Part shown: positions 3,277-48,709 of the stretch, one piece after another
Position numbering within the stretch: position 1 is the first letter of the stretch
Layout of the letters: each line of letters starts with the position of its first letter
Assembly (NCBI GenBank): GCA_004376295.1
Contig: SOJZ01000001.1
Coordinates: 1 to 57,982 of the forward strand
Origin: Candidatus Bathyarchaeota archaeon
Lineage (GTDB): Archaea; Thermoproteota; Bathyarchaeia; Bathyarchaeales; Bathyarchaeaceae
Length of the DNA stretch: 57,982 nucleotides
Direction: 5' to 3'
Translations under genes and position numbers: made by a program
The notes under the pieces: model-generated
The model's database searches: none
Seen by the model: only the letters and a program-made list of their open reading frames with translations
Told to the model about the DNA's origin: nothing

Positions 3277-3592
3277 GGCGGCGGGTCTAGGCGGGGGGCT
3301 AGGGGTCCCCTGAACCGTAAACCCTCTATACGACGGGCTGACTGCTAAGGTGAGGCACCAAAGATCATCAGGAACCTCAGCCTTCTGGCCGTGAGTATCC
3401 GTCCCTTGGGGCTGGCGGTCGTGGGGCAGCCTTCGTAGGGAGGCTGTCAAATACGTTCACCAGGTGAACCTGGCCAGGCCCGGGAGGGAGCAACCTAAGC
3501 TTGGACGTGCAGCGCTCGAGGGGTCACGGGTAGGAGTAAAGAGGTTAGGGGGCTTGGTGAAAACTGGGCGTCGAGCCTCAGTGACCCGCCGC
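3277..3592 (+). ncRNA. ffs: Signal recognition particle RNA (7S RNA), complete copy
   Basis: About 316 nt. The S-domain signature is clear: CACCAGGTGAAC followed by GGCCAGGCCCGGGAGGGAGC (helix 8 with its asymmetric and symmetric loops and the GGAG tetraloop region). The 5' end (3278-3287) and 3' end (3583-3592) pair perfectly over 10 bp (GCGGCGGGTC with GACCCGCCGC), closing the Alu-side terminal helix. The RNA is the scaffold for SRP19 and SRP54 in co-translational membrane targeting. Positions 3299-3592 are repeated at 4938-5231 with only two mismatches. Confidence 0.93.
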
Positions 3593-4937: not shown

Positions 4938-5232
4938 CTAGGGGTCCCCTGAACCGTAAACCCTCTATACGACGGGCTGACTGCTAAGGTGAGGCACCAA
5001 AGATCATCAGGAACCTCAGCCTTCTGGCCGTGAGTATCCGTCCCTTGGGGCTGGCGGTCGTGGGGCAGCCTTCGTAGGGAGGCTGTCAAATACGTTCACC
5101 AGGTGAACCTGGCCAGGCCCGGGAGGGAGCAACCTAAGCTTGGACGTGCAGCGCTCGAGGGGTCACGGGTAGGAGTAAAGAGGTTAGGGGGCTTGGTGAA
5201 AACTGGGCGTCGAGCCTCGGTGACTCGCCGCC
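4938..5232 (+). pseudogene. SRP RNA copy 2, lacking the 5' end
   Basis: Identical to 3299-3592 except for two substitutions (5219 and 5225), both in the last 13 nt. The first 22 nt of the RNA and the upstream TATA box are missing, so the terminal helix cannot close and no promoter is seen; it is probably not expressed as SRP RNA. Its 3' terminal GACTCGCCGCC can still pair with the 5' end of copy 1 over 11 bp with one G-U, so this end may be the ancestral 3' end. The dcd gene overlaps it on the other strand. Confidence 0.85.
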
Positions 5233-42043: not shown

Positions 42044-42277
42044 TTGTATTTGACAAAATGGTACGAGTTGAAGAAGAGAAATTTGAGCATTCTTGGTGAT
42101 TATGTGAAGAGAAGAACCGTCGGATACGCTTTGTTTACCGTCATTATGATTGTAATTCTTACATCGTTGCCTTTCTTTGTAGGAAAAATCGACTCAATCT
42201 ATCTCTTATTAATCATGACTGCTATAGGATTTCTATGGGCTATTCTAGGAATACATATGAGAAAAACCTTAATTTAA
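42044..42277 (+). CDS. Possible small membrane protein
   Basis: 77 residues from a TTG, with two hydrophobic helices (about 28-46 and 52-69). It overlaps the start of the integrase frame by 43 bp. A real gene is possible but weakly supported. Confidence 0.35.
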   Translation: MYLTKWYELKKRNLSILGDYVKRRTVGYALFTVIMIVILTSLPFFVGKIDSIYLLLIMTAIGFLWAILGIHMRKTLI

Positions 42278-43199
42278 GCTCTAAATCAGAAAAGAAGAGG
42301 GCGGGTAGCCTAGCATGGATAGGGCACGAACAACTCGACTATAGTTGGTGTAAGCCTCCTAAGCTCTTTATACATAGAACTGATGTTGATTTCAATGGAT
42401 TCAGAGAGTATGTATTCAAGAAGTATGTTGATGCTTATGCTAAGATGATTCTCAGATATGTACGTACCTACATCAATTACATTGATAATCCTTCTATGTT
42501 GGAGACATTCAACTGTTCTAAGAAAAACAATGTTCTGAAAAGTCTAATTGCATACTCTAAATATCATGGATTCTATGAGGAATTCAGAAAGAGAATTAAA
42601 GCCTATGGTGTTAAATGGAGTCGTTCTAGTTCCATTGATGCTTTCTTTAGAATTATGAGTAACTCTAACAATGATGTATTAAAATGGTACAATAAAGTCA
42701 TTAAAATCTTAGACAATAATACTCTATCATTATATCTTAAATTTGCTTTAATGTCGGGTATTAGAAAATCAGAAGCCATAAACTCTTTCAACGTAATGGT
42801 AGACTTAGGCAACAAGGGGAGAATCAATGATTATTACAATGAAGAAATAGAGACATTGGAACATTTCAAATATCCTAAGCTATTCTTTAGGAATACAAAG
42901 AATGTCTTCATTTCAATGATACCTAAAGATTTGATAATGGAAATTGTAAAGTGTAAGCCTATAACCTATCATGTGATTGGAAAGAGACTACAAGAAGAGG
43001 AGTAAGAATCAACGAACTAAGAGATTTCTATGCTACCTTTATGGTAAGACATGGATTAATCAGAGAAGAAGTAGATTTGTTACAGGGCAGAATCAGTAAG
43101 TCTATCTTTGTTAGACACTATTGGAGTCCTGCAATTAAAGAACTAAGACATAGAGTATTCAAAGCTTTACAAGAACTGAAGCAAACAACTCTCTCCTAA
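42235..43199 (+). pseudogene. SSV-type tyrosine integrase, broken by a frameshift
   Basis: The first frame (42235-43005) holds NGFREYVFKKYVDAYAKMIL and the Arg box MSGIRKSEAINSF. It stops at GKRLQEEE. A shifted frame continues with the C-terminal catalytic part: INELRDFYATFMVRHGL, EVDLLQGRI and SIFVRHYWSP with the nucleophilic Tyr. Adding one base near 42999 restores a single protein (LQERGVRINELRD), so one base was lost. It is related to integrases of archaeal viruses and plasmids (SSV1, Thermococcales elements). Its N-terminal codons overlap a tRNA-Arg-like sequence. Confidence 0.8.
42301..42356 (+). other. tRNA-Arg-like attachment sequence within the integrase frame
   Basis: GGGCGGGTAGCCTAGC, then ATGGATAGGGC, follow the acceptor and D-arm pattern of archaeal tRNA-Arg; a CAAC/GTTG stem follows. 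The anticodon loop is not standard and no T arm is present. It may be attP or attR of the SSV-type element. Confidence 0.45.
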
Positions 43200-43485
43200 T
43201 TCCCCTCTTTTTATTTTCTCAGAGACAAGAACAAACATAGAGTCTACCCATTTTCTAACGTTTTTAGTTTCCTTAAAGACCTCTTTTTCCTTGTGGAACA
43301 CATTTGATAGTTTACTTATTCTCTCTAACAAGCAGAATGGTACATTTAGAGGGAATATCTTGACTATATTTTCCTAGATTGAGAAAAGGAGACTTTGTCT
43401 ACGTTTGATTTTAACAAACTTTAGCTTCTTCATAGACAGCAGAACATTAACAATATCTTGAGTATGGTCGGAGTACAGTTTAAAG

Positions 43486-43510
43486 GGGCTGGTGTGCTGG
43501 ACGTAACCCG
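43486..43510 (+). repeat. Left attachment repeat: fragment of RNase P RNA 3' end
   Basis: 25 nt identical to 48395-48419, the last 25 nt of the RNase P RNA gene, in the same orientation. The match starts exactly at the RNA 3' terminus and stops at 43510. It is the expected displaced end of an integration site. Confidence 0.85.
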
Positions 43511-43577
43511 TCATTAGCCTTAGTAATTATTGTTTTTTTTGTTTTTATTTGTTGTTTATTTTTAGAAATAGGTGGTG

Positions 43578-43715
43578 TCATTTAGATTCTACCTCTCTTC
43601 TTCTGGGTTTGTTCCAGTATGGTGATCTGCATTTAGGGCATTGTATTGGGGTTAGTATTCGTGGTGTCCATTTGTGTTTACATCTAGTGCATGTGTATTT
43701 TGGTAATGTTTTCAT
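43578..43715 (-). CDS. Small zinc-ribbon protein
   Basis: 45 residues from the ATG at 43715 (MKTLPKYTCTRCKHKW). CTRC and CPKC form one zinc site, followed by SPYWNKPRR. Such proteins are common in archaea next to mobile or toxin-antitoxin genes. Confidence 0.6.
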   Translation of the reverse strand: MKTLPKYTCTRCKHKWTPRILTPIQCPKCRSPYWNKPRRREVESK

Positions 43716-43778
43716 TTTGTTTAACCTATGGTTATAATCATATAGTGGTTTATAAACATTTATGGGTTTGGATACTGT

Positions 43779-43786
43779 TGCATGCA
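43779..43786. repeat. TGCATGCA palindrome
   Basis: Within TTGCATGCATGG, 64 bp upstream of the zinc-ribbon gene start. Confidence 0.6.
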
Positions 43787-43932
43787 TGGTCAACAGACTT
43801 AACAGTATCATGGATTTGTGTTCTACAGTTTGTTTTTAGGATTTATTACAAGTGTTTTTCTACTGTGTGGTGCTAATGATGCGCGCGCATAACACTTTTA
43901 GCTCTACCGTACCATGAATCTAGTGAAGAGAA

Positions 43933-44025
43933 TTGCCGCAAAAGGGGAAAGCTAAGAAGCGAGGGCATAAAGAACGTGCACGTCATAGAAGAAGGAAAAT
44001 GAAAAAACGCCCTCCACAACAATAA
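43933..44025 (+). CDS. Possible 30-residue highly basic protein
   Basis: From a TTG: a frame very rich in Lys, Arg and His (PQKGKAKKRGHKERARHRRR, then KMKKRPPQQ), ending in TAA. Only composition supports it; a nucleic-acid-binding peptide is possible. Confidence 0.3.
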   Translation: MPQKGKAKKRGHKERARHRRRKMKKRPPQQ

Positions 44026-44040
44026 CTACACCTAGTGGCA

Positions 44041-44048
44041 TGCATGCA
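44041..44048. repeat. TGCATGCA palindrome
   Basis: Within GCATGCATGCATT, 15 bp behind the stop of the small basic frame. Confidence 0.6.
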
Positions 44049-44200
44049 TTACTTTCATTTTATCTCTTTCCTTTTGTCTACTTTCGATCCCTCAAGAGTT
44101 TTCTTCTTTTGGATTTAGAGTGTTTCTTTCTTTCTTTTCGGGTAAATCCATCTCTGAATATCTTTTTCCATTTCATTATTTTTTCTCCATTATCTTGTTA

Positions 44201-44210
44201 GCATGCATGC
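44201..44210. repeat. GCATGCATGC palindrome
   Basis: Perfect 10-bp palindrome in the T-rich non-coding stretch between 44026 and 44851; one base short of the TGCATGCA octamer. Confidence 0.55.
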
Positions 44211-44480
44211 CTCTTTCTTTTTGGCTCTGTATTTGCGTTGTGCCTCTCGCCAGTGTTTGCGGAGTTCTTCTCCGTGTTTAAATTCTTTGGTCATTTTTTG
44301 TTTGCTCCTGTACTAAACTCTATGTGTCCTATGACACATAAGGAGTATGTATTTGCGTACTACTGTGCTACTGTTGAACAGTTTATTATGAGTGCTTGGT
44401 CTATTTTCCTTTAGCGTTTCTCGTTTATAGCGTTGTTTAGGTGTCGCTCATTGGTTTAGTTTTTCTTTCGTCGCTATCGG

Positions 44481-44519
44481 GGGTAGCTCCTCGCTGTAAG
44501 AGGAGCTATCCTTTTTTTT
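44481..44519 (+). terminator. Strong hairpin followed by T run
   Basis: GGGTAGCTCCT pairs with AGGAGCTATCC over 11 bp (one G-U) around a 9-nt loop and is followed by eight T. It looks like an intrinsic terminator on the plus strand. No gene upstream on that strand explains it, so an unrecognised transcript may end here. Confidence 0.6.
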
Positions 44520-44527
44520 CCAGAGGA

Positions 44528-44569
44528 GAAGATAATAAATTTATACGCTCACGATAAATTTATATCTTC
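44528..44569. promoter_or_regulatory. AT-rich dyad with paired TATA-like boxes
   Basis: GAAGATAATAAATTTAT (44528-44544) and ATAAATTTATATCTTC (44554-44569) are inverted repeats separated by 9 bp. Each arm holds a TTTATA-like box, suggesting divergent promoters or an operator. The region 43716-44851 otherwise shows no convincing gene. Confidence 0.5.
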
Positions 44570-44823
44570 GACGGATTGAGTTTAGTTTTTCTTATCAGAG
44601 CTAGAGGGGTCTCCTCTGGCGTGGTGTTGAAAGTGTTGGTAACAGCTTCTGTCAATGATTGTTTTGGATGCTGTTTCTCACTTTTAGCTTTGCTTTAGAA
44701 ACTTCTCAGTTTTGTTTTAGTTCGTCTTTTCAAGAGGACAGTTCTTAGAGTTGCGTTTTTTGAAGGAACGTCATTTTTGTTTTTTTTGTTGATGCGATAC
44801 TGTTAAGTTTGTTGACCTAGCCA

Positions 44824-44831
44824 TGCATGCA
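44824..44831. repeat. TGCATGCA inside 14-bp palindrome CCATGCATGCATGG
   Basis: Perfect 14-bp palindrome at 44821-44834, 17 bp behind the TBP stop codon. Confidence 0.7.
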
Positions 44832-44851
44832 TGGAGAGAATTCAACTACGT

Positions 44852-45409
44852 CTAGTAGTATATCAGCTGTTTATCTTCAAGTCTCTGATGGAGTATGTTG
44901 ACTGCTTGATAAACGTCTTCTTCATGCTTGGCGCCTGTGCATACCAGTTTTCCGGTTGAAAACAGAAGAATAACGACTTTAGGCTCAGCCATTCGGTAGA
45001 TGAGACCGGGGAATTGTTCAGGCTCGTACATGGTTTTCCCCAGTGAATAGGTTGCTTTTTCAAGGTCAATGGTTCCTCTTAGGCCTGCTGCAGCGACGAT
45101 GTTCTGTACCTTCAGCTTCGGCTTGCCGATGATTAGTATTCCACTCTCCTTCAGTTCTTTGACAACTTTCATTACTGCTCTTCTTGCCTCTTTTTCCGAC
45201 TTGGCTCCTGTGCACACCATCTTTCCCGAATTGAAAATTAGAGTGGCTGTTTTCGGCTTTTTCAAACGAAAAACGAGTCCTGGGAACTGTTCTGGGCGAT
45301 ATTCAACTCCAGGATGACCTTTCACCACAGCGTTCAAGTCAATTCTTTGATCCAATGATGCGGATGCAACCACGTTTTCGATGTTGATTGAAGCTTTAAC
45401 CTCTGGCAC
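44852..45409 (-). CDS. tbp: TATA-binding protein
   Basis: 185 residues with the two saddle-forming direct repeats. Repeat 1 has EYRPEQFPGLVFRL and SGKMVCTGAKSEKEA; repeat 2 has YEPEQFPGLIYRM and TGKLVCTGAKHEEDV. Intron-free and full length, so functional. It directs RNA polymerase with TFB to TATA boxes. It lies between the two rnpB-derived repeats, so it is either cargo of the element or a host gene caught between them. Confidence 0.96.
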   Translation of the reverse strand: MPEVKASINIENVVASASLDQRIDLNAVVKGHPGVEYRPEQFPGLVFRLKKPKTATLIFNSGKMVCTGAKSEKEARRAVMKVVKELKESGILIIGKPKLKVQNIVAAAGLRGTIDLEKATYSLGKTMYEPEQFPGLIYRMAEPKVVILLFSTGKLVCTGAKHEEDVYQAVNILHQRLEDKQLIYY

Positions 45410-45567
45410 TTGAGCACCTCTTTATAAGGATACCCGATATCAGTAGGAGTTATTCATAAAGGCTTGGTTCTAAGCCTCAGCTTCTTTCCTCAGCGAAGGA
45501 CGACGCATGTAAAGCGAGCAAATAACTAACAATATGAGTTTGGTCACTGTTCTACCTACTACAAGAA

Positions 45568-45575
45568 TGCATGCA
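45568..45575. repeat. TGCATGCA palindrome
   Basis: 16 bp behind the stop of the acidic zinc-ribbon gene. Confidence 0.65.
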
Positions 45576-45591
45576 GTCTAGTTTTTTATAT

Positions 45592-45825
45592 TCAACTCTT
45601 TTCATTTATGGAATCTTTTTCATCAGATTTTTCCTCACCAGCAGTTTCTTCATCTTTTTCTTCTAGTACTTGCTTTTCAATGATTTCTTCTTTTTTCTGT
45701 TTTTCAACAGCTTCTTCTTTTATATCTGAGCTTACAGCTTTTTGACTACACCGTTTGCAAAGACCAGCATAATTAAGAAACTTTTCTGATTTACAAAGTT
45801 TGCATTTTCCATAAGTTTTTCCCAC
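45592..45825 (-). CDS. Small zinc-ribbon protein with acidic tail
   Basis: 77 residues from a GTG preceded by AAGGTGAT. CKLC and CKRC form a zinc site near the N-terminus; the remaining 45 residues are almost all Glu, Lys, Asp and Ser. Function unknown. Confidence 0.6.
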   Translation of the reverse strand: MGKTYGKCKLCKSEKFLNYAGLCKRCSQKAVSSDIKEEAVEKQKKEEIIEKQVLEEKDEETAGEEKSDEKDSINEKS

Positions 45826-45875
45826 GATATCACCTTTTCAATTTTGTTCTATAAATTAATTAACCAATATATTTT

Positions 45876-45920
45876 GTGTGTGTGGGGGGTTAAATGTTTA
45901 ATCCCTAAACCCACACACAC
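45876..45920. other. Long hairpin upstream of the acidic zinc-ribbon gene
   Basis: GTGTGTGTGGG pairs with CCCACACACAC (11 bp), with an inner GGGTTAAA/TTTAATCCC stem that has one bulge. It lies just upstream of the AATATATT box of the 45592-45825 gene and about 260 bp behind the ATPase gene, so it may be an operator or terminator. The rest of 45826-46177 shows only TGCATGCA palindromes. Confidence 0.5.
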
Positions 45921-45954
45921 TAGTAGGATATGTGTTGGGTCAAAATTTAATCCA

Positions 45955-45962
45955 TGCATGCA
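45955..45962. repeat. TGCATGCA palindrome
   Basis: Within CCATGCATGCATA, between the acidic zinc-ribbon and ATPase genes. Confidence 0.65.
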
Positions 45963-46083
45963 TAGCGGTGTTGATGTTTGTTGTTGTTTTTGTGCTTGCG
46001 AAAGGAGCGAAGCGACTTTGAGCAAGGGTCTGAATGACTAGATGATACAGAAAAAAAGAGAGGGATGTTATTTGCGTTGTGTG

Positions 46084-46091
46084 TGCATGCA
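46084..46091. repeat. TGCATGCA palindrome
   Basis: 87 bp behind the ATPase stop, next to a copy of GTTATTTGCGTT. Confidence 0.65.
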
Positions 46092-46177
46092 TGTAAAAAA
46101 ACATGAACGTGACTGCCCTAGTTCAATGTACTAAACAAGCCATTTCAAAATATTCGGAACAGGGAAGACATGAGTAA

Positions 46178-47251
46178 TTAGATTTGACCAAGTGTTTTCG
46201 TAATCCATTGGATGTTATCTGTGGCTTTTGCTGTGGCTACTCCAGAGGTGAAATCTCTATCCACTAAGATGCACCTAAATTCTTCCTTTTTTCTTTTAGG
46301 CTCCTTGTAAAGAACTCGACTAAAGGAATTCCAAACGCTGTTGCTATGTGTGGTTATGAATAACTGCAAGTCGTTCTCCCTCGAAATACCAACGAGGTTA
46401 AGGATTAGTTGTTTTAGAGACCCAGAATGTTGATGGTTCTCAATTTCCTCAATGAAAATAGTTGTTCCTCGAAGAGTCATCGCAGTTGCACAAATAGACA
46501 GACCAAAGCGAAATCCATCCCCAAAATCACTGAGGAAATACCGCTTTTCTCCTTCTTTAAAGGCTATTCTCTTTTCTTGCGGAGAGTCAGGATGAGGCAG
46601 AAATTCCCAATATTTGCCCTTTCCGTAGATTTTTCTAAGAATAGCGCCAAATTCTTCGTCTTTCAAATCAAGTTTAATTTGCCCAAGACAGGATTCTACA
46701 GATGATAGTTGCGCCTTTTTTCTGCAATCTATCAAAACAGCATTTCTGAAATGTCTAGTTATGGGGTAACGCAACAAGGGTCTCGTTGTGCGCATTTTGT
46801 CCAGAAGATTAAGCCCAGCTCGAGGGCGCTGATTGACGATTCTAAGGTTATGAATCGAGTATTCTGACCCTCTAGTCCTAGAACTCCAGGGCGTGCGTGA
46901 GGGGGGTAAACTTCTTTCTACTCCAAGAATTGTGTTGATGTTGTCACCTTCCCTATTGAATTTCAGGCTGACACCGAAATTGTCAAAATCGAGGGCAATA
47001 TCTACTGTTTGTTCGGTATCGTAACCAAACCAAAGTTCGCGTCCTCCAGTGAAGACATTGGTTCTGCGTCCCATAATTTCGTGAAGATTGGGGGATATAA
47101 ACTCCTTACAAGTATGAAAGATGGCTTCCAAAATACTGGACTTTCCAGAATCGTTTTTCCCTATGATTAAATTTACTCTTCGTAAATCCTTCACTTCGCA
47201 ACTCTTGAGCCCCTTAAAATTTGAAATCCTAACTTCATTAATCAACAACAA
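46178..47251 (-). CDS. AAA/ABC-type ATPase, OLD/RecF-like
   Basis: 357 residues from a TTG preceded by AAGGTGA. SNFKGLKSCEVKDL and Walker A GKNDSGKSS are N-terminal; TIFIEEIENHQHSGSL (Walker B region) and FITTHSNSVW (switch His) are C-terminal. This is the split ABC ATPase fold of AAA_15/AAA_21 proteins. Unlike OLD nucleases it has no Toprim domain at its end. Such ATPases often serve in phage defence or in mobile-element maintenance; no nuclease partner is adjacent. Confidence 0.85.
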   Translation of the reverse strand: MLLINEVRISNFKGLKSCEVKDLRRVNLIIGKNDSGKSSILEAIFHTCKEFISPNLHEIMGRRTNVFTGGRELWFGYDTEQTVDIALDFDNFGVSLKFNREGDNINTILGVERSLPPSRTPWSSRTRGSEYSIHNLRIVNQRPRAGLNLLDKMRTTRPLLRYPITRHFRNAVLIDCRKKAQLSSVESCLGQIKLDLKDEEFGAILRKIYGKGKYWEFLPHPDSPQEKRIAFKEGEKRYFLSDFGDGFRFGLSICATAMTLRGTTIFIEEIENHQHSGSLKQLILNLVGISRENDLQLFITTHSNSVWNSFSRVLYKEPKRKKEEFRCILVDRDFTSGVATAKATDNIQWITKTLGQI

Positions 47252-47314
47252 TTCACCTTATGAGATATTCTATGTTTCAATTATAAACCTTCGTAAACTT
47301 TGTTTATTGTTAGG

Positions 47315-47322
47315 TGCATGCA
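47315..47322. repeat. TGCATGCA palindrome
   Basis: 64 bp upstream of the ATPase start, in the gap to the recombinase gene. Confidence 0.65.
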
Positions 47323-47501
47323 TGGTTGATGATTATTTTTTGATTGATGTTGTTATGTTTTTTGAAGGTTTTCGTTCTGTGCATGTATTGCATTCTGAGG
47401 TTTATGTTGTTGGATAGGTTGTTTGCCTTTTTGTTGGTATGAGCACGAGCATAGCGAGTGCGAATAATGGCTTGAAGCGATTTAATAGAAAAAAGGGGGT
47501 G

Positions 47502-48440
47502 TTATTTGCGTTTTCGGAATAGCATTAGTGCGTCTGGTGTTGTTGTAACATATTCGAATCCGTTTTCTATTAGTTCTGTTGCTTGTTTTGTGTTGGTTGT
47601 TGCTTTGCATGTCCATTCATCATCTTCGTGTAGGTTTAGAAGCTGTGTGTAGATTAGGGTTGTTTCGATTTTTTTGTGTCCCATTTGTTGCTTAACTAGA
47701 AGTATGTCTCTCGTTTTTGCGTAGAGTCTGCTTGCGAAGTAGTGCCTAAAGTCGTAGAGTCTTATGCTTTTTAGTTCGGGTTTGTTTAGCTTTTCGGCTA
47801 GTTTGTTTCTATATAGTCTAAAGTGTTTTCCGTAGTTGTCTGAGTCGCCTTTGAATAGTTTGTCATTGGGGTTTAGGTTGTGTTCGCTGATATGCCTTTG
47901 GAGCGTGGCTGTTAAGCTGTTGCTTATTTTTAATGCTCTTGGTGCTCCATGTTTGGCGGTTGTTGGGTAAATGATTCTTTGCTCTATGTCAATGTCTTTT
48001 ACTTTTAGGTTGCATAACTCGATTGGTCTTAGTCCTGTTTCTTTGCTGACGGTTAGTTTTGCTGAGTTTATTCTTCCTGCGTTGGCAATTAGCATTTCGA
48101 TTTGTGTTGTTGATGGAATCCTTATCATTTTTGGCTCTTGTTTATAAAATGGTTTGTTCCATTCAATTTGGTAGTAATTACAATATTTGTCGTATGCTAG
48201 ACTTAGGTTTCTTCTGTAACTGTTTGAAGTTTGTTTGTTTGCTATGAATTGTTTGACTTGTTCGGGGTTGTTTAGGTCTGCATGTTTGCTCAAGTACGTT
48301 AAGGCTTTGTCGTAAGTCTTTATTGTGCTGTCGCTTAGTCCGTTGTTTTTCATTTGGATTAGTATGTTTAAAATGGCATGGGTTTTGGGTTTTTGGGCTG
48401 GTGTGCTGGACGTAACCCGCCTTCTGTTCAAAGACGGCAT
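47502..48440 (-). CDS. Tyrosine recombinase of the rnpB element
   Basis: 312 residues. The N-terminal SAM-like core-binding domain (GLSDSTIKTYDKALTYLSKH) is followed by the catalytic domain: Arg I in ETGLRPIELCNL, a Lys at TAKHGAPRA, the DFRHYFASRL box (first His replaced by Tyr), QQMGHKKIETTLIYTQL with the nucleophilic Tyr. The frame opens at ATG 48440, inside the RNase P RNA gene, and the first 15 codons are that gene's 3' end. An internal ATG lies at 48353. It should catalyse integration and excision at the rnpB repeat. Confidence 0.88.
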   Translation of the reverse strand: MPSLNRRRVTSSTPAQKPKTHAILNILIQMKNNGLSDSTIKTYDKALTYLSKHADLNNPEQVKQFIANKQTSNSYRRNLSLAYDKYCNYYQIEWNKPFYKQEPKMIRIPSTTQIEMLIANAGRINSAKLTVSKETGLRPIELCNLKVKDIDIEQRIIYPTTAKHGAPRALKISNSLTATLQRHISEHNLNPNDKLFKGDSDNYGKHFRLYRNKLAEKLNKPELKSIRLYDFRHYFASRLYAKTRDILLVKQQMGHKKIETTLIYTQLLNLHEDDEWTCKATTNTKQATELIENGFEYVTTTPDALMLFRKRK

Positions 48441-48709
48441 TCAGCTAAACGGGCTACCCGCGCCTCCCGCAGAAACTCACAGGCGCCTATTTGCCCTTTC
48501 ACCCTGCAGGTCGGCCGTTTCACCGCTTCCACCCGGCATCCTCAACGACTTAACACGCTTCATCGTCCTCTCACCGAATGGACGTTCCGTTTCTGCTCCG
48601 GAGCCAAGGCTCTCGCCCCACGTCTTTACAGGCGTTGCAGTTCTACATGGTGGGCGGAGTTTCCTCAAACGCGTGAGCGTTCGAAAGCCGTCCGCCAGCT
48701 CACCAGCCC
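48395..48709 (-). ncRNA. rnpB: RNase P RNA
   Basis: About 315 nt. Conserved region I GAGGAAACTCC at 48656-48666, the AGAAACGGAAC segment and conserved region V ACAGAAGGCGGGTTAC at 48413-48428 are present. The ends GGGCTGGTG and CACCAGCCC pair to form P1. It is the catalytic RNA that matures tRNA 5' ends. The 3' 46 nt overlap the tyrosine recombinase frame on the same strand, and the last 25 nt are duplicated at 43486-43510. Confidence 0.92.

Follow-up and report, generated by a model that had tools for sequence, protein, structure and literature searches.

The window analysed here, a stretch of 57,982 nucleotides from a Candidatus Bathyarchaeota archaeon, assigned to the Bathyarchaeia, carries an integrative element of 4.9 kb, inserted at the 3' end of the RNase P RNA gene (rnpB). 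Its tyrosine recombinase is probably a self-split one, in which the circular form of the element supplies the start of the gene and integration removes it, the window copy being out of frame with its own start. In the circle, the element's far (right) end would contribute a start codon and approximately 8-40 codons, read via attP into the recombinase body. Integration would carry this N-terminal part 3-13 kb away and leave the body behind, fused to an RNA gene's 3' end. The integrated body, usually left without a start codon, would thereby be silenced. In the window, the N-terminal piece is present at 43511-43581, but this piece and the body are in different frames because of a 1-nt difference in the linker. 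The att repeats, the N-terminal part, the frame relations and the conservation of the first helix of the body are observed directly, and from them we infer that the gene is translated from the circle and falls silent once integrated.

Structure of the Element and Its Target

The rnpB gene of the window is intact, its 3' end being regenerated at attL, and the 3' strand of its helix P1 reaches 48395 (pair I3). The exact 25-bp repeat that bounds the element occurs in only two copies in the window and in none of 100 shuffles; it is not expected by chance. The two copies enclose genes for a PF00589 recombinase, an AAA_15 ATPase and a TATA-binding protein; the rest consists of two small ORFs, similar to or bordering on zinc ribbons, and further sequence. 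The features are as follows:

48395..48703, minus strand: rnpB, archaeal RNase P RNA (RF00373, 218.4 bits over 48401-48703)
48395..48419, minus strand: attL, exact 25-bp repeat, 3' terminus of rnpB
48380..48394, minus strand: linker AAAAACCCAAAACCC from att to body, 15 nt (16 nt in the G003 counterpart)
47502..48440, minus strand: tyrosine recombinase ORF in the integrated state, 312 aa (PF00589, E=5.7e-20)
46178..47251, minus strand: AAA_15 ATPase gene of the element (PF13175, E=3.1e-21)
44852..45409, minus strand: TATA-binding protein gene inside the element (PF00352, E=9.7e-62)
43578..43811, minus strand: 77-aa zinc-ribbon-like ORF, whose TGA overlaps the ATG of int(N) (ATGA)
43511..43581, minus strand: int(N), detached N-terminal coding piece (MTPPISKNKQQIKTKKTIITKAND...), preceding the recombinase in the circle, one frame off
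43514..43527, minus strand: motif ATTACTAAGGCTAA adjoining the att core, found at the right ends of relatives by inspection
43486..43510, minus strand: attR, other copy of the 25-bp repeat, 4909 bp from attL
43424..43485, minus strand: remnant of the N-terminus of another recombinase (RVTSSTPAPLNCTPTILKILLMF), directly past attR, read by eye

The remnant at 43424..43485 was compared with the relatives L039 and L051, and suggests a tandem array of elements. Just beyond attR, a second recombinase remnant, of the PF16795 (SSV-type) kind, lies at 42235-43199 on the plus strand; its last part matches Phage_integr_3 (E=3e-5) and its frame breaks near 43005. At rnpB, elements or remnants are also arrayed in tandem in L052, L058, L061, L073, and L167, and these arrays include degenerate copies of the rnpB 3' end.

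Several other observations concern the element and its surroundings. The genome of the window holds four copies of the TATA-binding protein (G000:C21, C36, C12), 99-75% identical to the window copy, and that of the counterpart element in G003 is 92% identical to it. The sequence GCATGCAT occurs 26 times against 1.3 by chance, mainly within 43780-47323, clustered between the element genes. Elsewhere in the window, two SRP RNA copies of 294 nt (3299-3592 and 4938-5231, plus strand; 99% identity, 1639 bp apart) enclose a 362-aa ORF which by eye is radical-SAM-like. A scan of viral contigs for relatives found none. A literature search, which was not exhaustive, found no paper that names rnpB as an archaeal integration site.

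Reading Frame of the Window Recombinase

The recombinase ORF begins with an ATG at 48440 inside rnpB and ends with a stop at 47502, and its frame crosses the att repeat. Read from the rnpB start, the protein begins MPSLNRRRVTSS..., and its codons 1 to approximately 15 are rnpB sequence. The initial annotation had described this start and the read-through of the attachment site, and the RF00373 match, the ORF coordinates, and the exact repeat confirm both. Its further claim, that in the circle the repeat is immediately preceded by an in-frame TGA, so that the start at 48440 is lost, is borne out in the reconstructed junction, where the frame reads TGA CGG GTT ACG and the stop abuts the repeat. 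After the repeat, this circle frame contains no canonical start before Met30. In the integrated element of the window, the only in-frame canonical starts before helix 1 are the rnpB ATG and a TTG at codon 4, so that translation supplied by the host is possible.

The protein has the tyrosine recombinase fold, matching XerA, Cre, and IntI, and the R..K..R..H..Y set of catalytic residues: K163, R232, H255, and Y264 are invariant and R138 is nearly so. The HxxR box here begins with Tyr. Its conserved body begins at helix 1, about 48383. Helix 1 spans residues 20-32 (ILNILIQMK), is modelled by AlphaFold2 with a pLDDT of approximately 95, and is kept in frame in all 65 homologues. Residues 1-19, encoded by att, are disordered in the same model. 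The dN/dS of the body is approximately 0.22 against its closest relatives, L051 and the G003 counterpart, which indicates that the body is under purifying selection.

At the opposite end of the element, the ATG of int(N) (43581-43579) overlaps the TGA of the 77-aa ORF and is followed by MTPPISKNKQQIKTKKTIITKAND up to att. A useful comparison is offered by the counterpart element of G003, a genome of the same genus, which is collinear with that of the window, though across a contig gap. Its N-terminal part (MTPPISKNKQQIKTKITKAND) is the same, and there N-part and body are in frame through the 16-nt linker (MTPPISKNKQQIKTKITKANDGLRPAHQP, then NSTVTHAVLNVLIKL). The window int(N) is out of frame with its body because the linker is one base shorter than that of G003. 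This 1-nt difference in a homopolymer-rich linker (tract A5C3A4C3) is most simply read as a mutation, as the product of recombination between tandem elements, or as an assembly error.

The motif ATTACTAAGGCTAA is conserved at the right ends of relatives regardless of reading frame. Its occurrence in all three frames led to the rejection of a conserved peptide as its explanation, and it is probably a DNA site, a candidate for recombinase binding. Similar motifs adjoin the att core at many right ends, namely those of L073 and in L112, L126, L130, L149, L155, and L174.

Circle Junctions across the Family

The homologue set comprised about 65 Bathyarchaeia relatives. They form a family of PF00589 recombinases with an att site within the 5' end of their own gene, and homologues of the window clade mostly adjoin an RNA gene on the same strand (rnpB, tRNA-Thr, tRNA-Ala, and others). 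Circle junctions, consisting of right end, att, and body, were rebuilt for 25 elements with repeats; a circle start was counted when an ATG at least 7 codons before att was open into the body in the frame of the body. At sites other than rnpB, mostly tRNA genes, the circle has such an ATG in 15 of the 17 elements, L100, with its doubtful att pair, being entered as a failure. In two control frames, an ORF of this kind was found in 3/34 cases (Fisher p=3e-8). Counted by 70%-identity clusters, the figures are 10/11 against 3/22 in the control (Fisher p=3e-5). A typical fusion joins MSIDKITKAK to GGFKSRPRLH, the second part beginning with the start of the tRNA-derived att.

The integrated state of the same genes gives the complementary picture. 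Six integrated copies (L062, L064, L066, L068, L070, and L072) have no in-frame ATG, GTG, or TTG before helix 1, and all six have an ATG in the circle. Because of these start-less copies and the 15/17 circles with a start, the sequences place the gene start in this family at the far end of the element, rejoined to the body only in the circle. The same six relatives suggest that integration silences the recombinase. The initial annotation had proposed that integration could switch the N-terminus or expression of the gene by providing the start in rnpB, and had called for a comparison of N-termini among relatives. That integration alters the 5' end of the recombinase holds family-wide; the direction proposed does not, since it is the circle of the relatives that has the start and the integrated copy that loses it. 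The usual direction in the family is thus likely the reverse, integration taking the start codon away.

The rnpB-Targeting Clade

The rnpB-targeting clade consists of 15 tree rows including the window (support 100/99). Of the 8 usable pairs from this group, 3 have the N-part in frame with the body, a rate no higher than chance; the count includes two cross-contig pairings (G003 and G155), inferred from collinearity or shared att variants, and leaves out L053, whose att pair is doubtful. The circle of L073 was built with the rnpB-core att pair and not with the 23-bp repeat of its right end. In L052 and L056, both at rnpB, the circle is also in frame. As N-part and body agree in so few pairs, the rnpB branch may initiate translation of the recombinase in some other way.

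Among 10 rnpB-adjacent genes, 4 have the rnpB ATG in frame (the window, the first integrase of L052, L058, and L061), close to the chance expectation of 1/3; a conserved mechanism based on the rnpB start is not supported by this count. An own ATG just 3' of att is present in the first integrase of L052 and in L056, L057, and L073. No start at all was found in the integrated form of L039, L059, L092, and L096. The bodies of the out-of-frame rnpB members are nevertheless intact and that of the window is under purifying selection; therefore, something expresses them. Since the genes of the clade are intact, a start must be obtained in some way, and a borrowed rnpB start is one option. For the window element, the sequence makes such borrowing possible. 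The coupling of the recombinase to rnpB transcription put forward in the initial annotation is plausible from their co-orientation, though putative, and the opening of the frame up to the rnpB ATG is probably an accidental by-product and not an evolved switch.

Alternative Explanations

If the start were indeed supplied by the host, the recombinase would be translated from the rnpB ATG only when integrated, and the circle could not make it. In both the window and L058, the frame opens at the rnpB ATG (MPSLN[RK]RRVT), a TGA in this frame precedes att in the circle, and no ATG lies between att and helix 1. In L061 the frame likewise agrees with the rnpB ATG despite an rnpB one base shorter, and the purifying selection on the bodies also speaks for this explanation. 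However, just 4/10 rnpB-adjacent recombinases agree in frame, L039, L059, L092, and L096 lack any start when integrated, and the rnpB ATG lies within a highly structured, processed RNA. Moreover, a circle unable to make recombinase would not integrate into a new host without help. This explanation is considered unlikely for the window. The corresponding model for the rnpB branch, in which translation occurs only after integration with a start borrowed from host rnpB, so that integration arms excision instead of silencing the gene, is similarly improbable. It is highly improbable that the recombinase is a conventional one whose translation begins at Met30 (48353) in the circle as well as after integration. 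Met is frequent at position 30 in relatives, but many have Leu there and no start, and the Met30 form would lack approximately 10 of the 13 residues of helix 1, conserved in all homologues. As most of this helix would be removed, such a form is unlikely to be functional, Met30 was rejected as the true start, and the shorter protein from 48353 expected by the initial annotation in the circle is implausible.

There is nearly an even chance that the window gene is a recent frameshift mutant, a recombinant of N-part and body between tandem elements, or an assembly indel in A/C homopolymers, with an ancestor fused in frame in the circle. The 15-nt linker, against 16 nt in the counterpart and within the A5C3A4C3 tract, favours this, as do two right ends in the window's genome (C31 and C36) in frame 0, the same as the window body, and the neighbouring PF16795 remnant, which is likewise frameshifted. 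Conversely, the ORFs of the TATA-binding protein, the ATPase, and the body are intact, and the closest relative, L051, shares the body frame of the window, which therefore may predate the window's genome. It is very unlikely that programmed -1 frameshifting joins int(N) and body in the circle. The linker has a C CCA AAA heptamer (48389-48383) in the correct register for a -1 shift, as checked by hand, and the shifted frame runs on into the body; yet the tract is of low complexity, so that a chance match is likely, other rnpB members would need different shifts, and L058, whose frame offset is equal, lacks the heptamer and has a stop (TAG) within attP. Differing offsets and the L058 stop also led to its rejection as a family feature.

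Origin and Comparison with Known Systems

In the tree, which was midpoint-rooted for drawing only, its polarity being putative, a 43-row group (100/100) contains the window's 15-row clade together with 14 of the 15 recombinases that have a circle start. Among the other 22 rows are all 11 relatives in which a zinc-ribbon N-terminus was detected, ten of which have an upstream in-frame ATG. As the 43-row clade is set apart from the 22-row zinc-ribbon clade, the tree suggests a separate origin of gene splitting here. A distant second recombinase lineage is also found at rnpB (L092, G134:C18, and L096, G128:C143, with L090), so that this targeting seems to have evolved repeatedly.

Suicidal archaeal integrases (SSV1, pTN3, and pT26-2) have attP inside the integrase gene, and integration parts their N-terminal part from the catalytic C-terminal part, which in pTN3 could be transcribed from the host tRNA promoter (PMC8371274). 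They carry PF16795 (Phage_integr_3) and are described as a group stemming from a single event (PMC8371274). The present family resembles them in that the recombination site lies in the integrase gene, with an in-frame circle ORF through attP at most non-rnpB sites; the window has att inside the gene as well, but its two parts are out of frame. Unlike them, all 31 members scanned carry PF00589 and none PF16795, the detached N-terminal part is very short (approximately 8-40 codons before att), and what integration takes away is chiefly the start codon along with a disordered tail.

Integrase genes of type II (pNOB8) are described as staying intact after integration (PMC8371274), and the pNOB8-type recombinase directly adjoins the regenerated RNA gene and shares its strand (PMC3293823). 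The window recombinase is similar in carrying PF00589 and adjoining a regenerated RNA gene on the same strand. It has the rnpB ATG available when integrated, whereas many integrated copies of the family, such as the six start-less ones, have no start codon upstream of helix 1, their start being at the other end of the element.

Archaeal XerA resolves chromosome dimers. It is the nearest solved protein, since the window recombinase has its best solved-sequence match with 4a8e (8.9e-15) and its best fold matches with 5hxy and 4a8e. Unlike XerA, the window recombinase is carried by a 4.9-kb element with att repeats at rnpB.

Significance

Self-splitting integrases had previously been described as one archaeal invention bound to PF16795. 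A PF00589 family with att in its own 5' end would be a second origin of gene splitting, in a minimal form, where integrated copies seem to lose little beyond the start codon. It would also imply that recombinases which look intact beside tRNA or rnpB genes, and are likely to be annotated as ordinary type II integrases, may have no usable start. The many natural cases at tRNA-Thr, tRNA-Ala, rnpB, and other genes allow a direct comparison of the circular and the integrated state.
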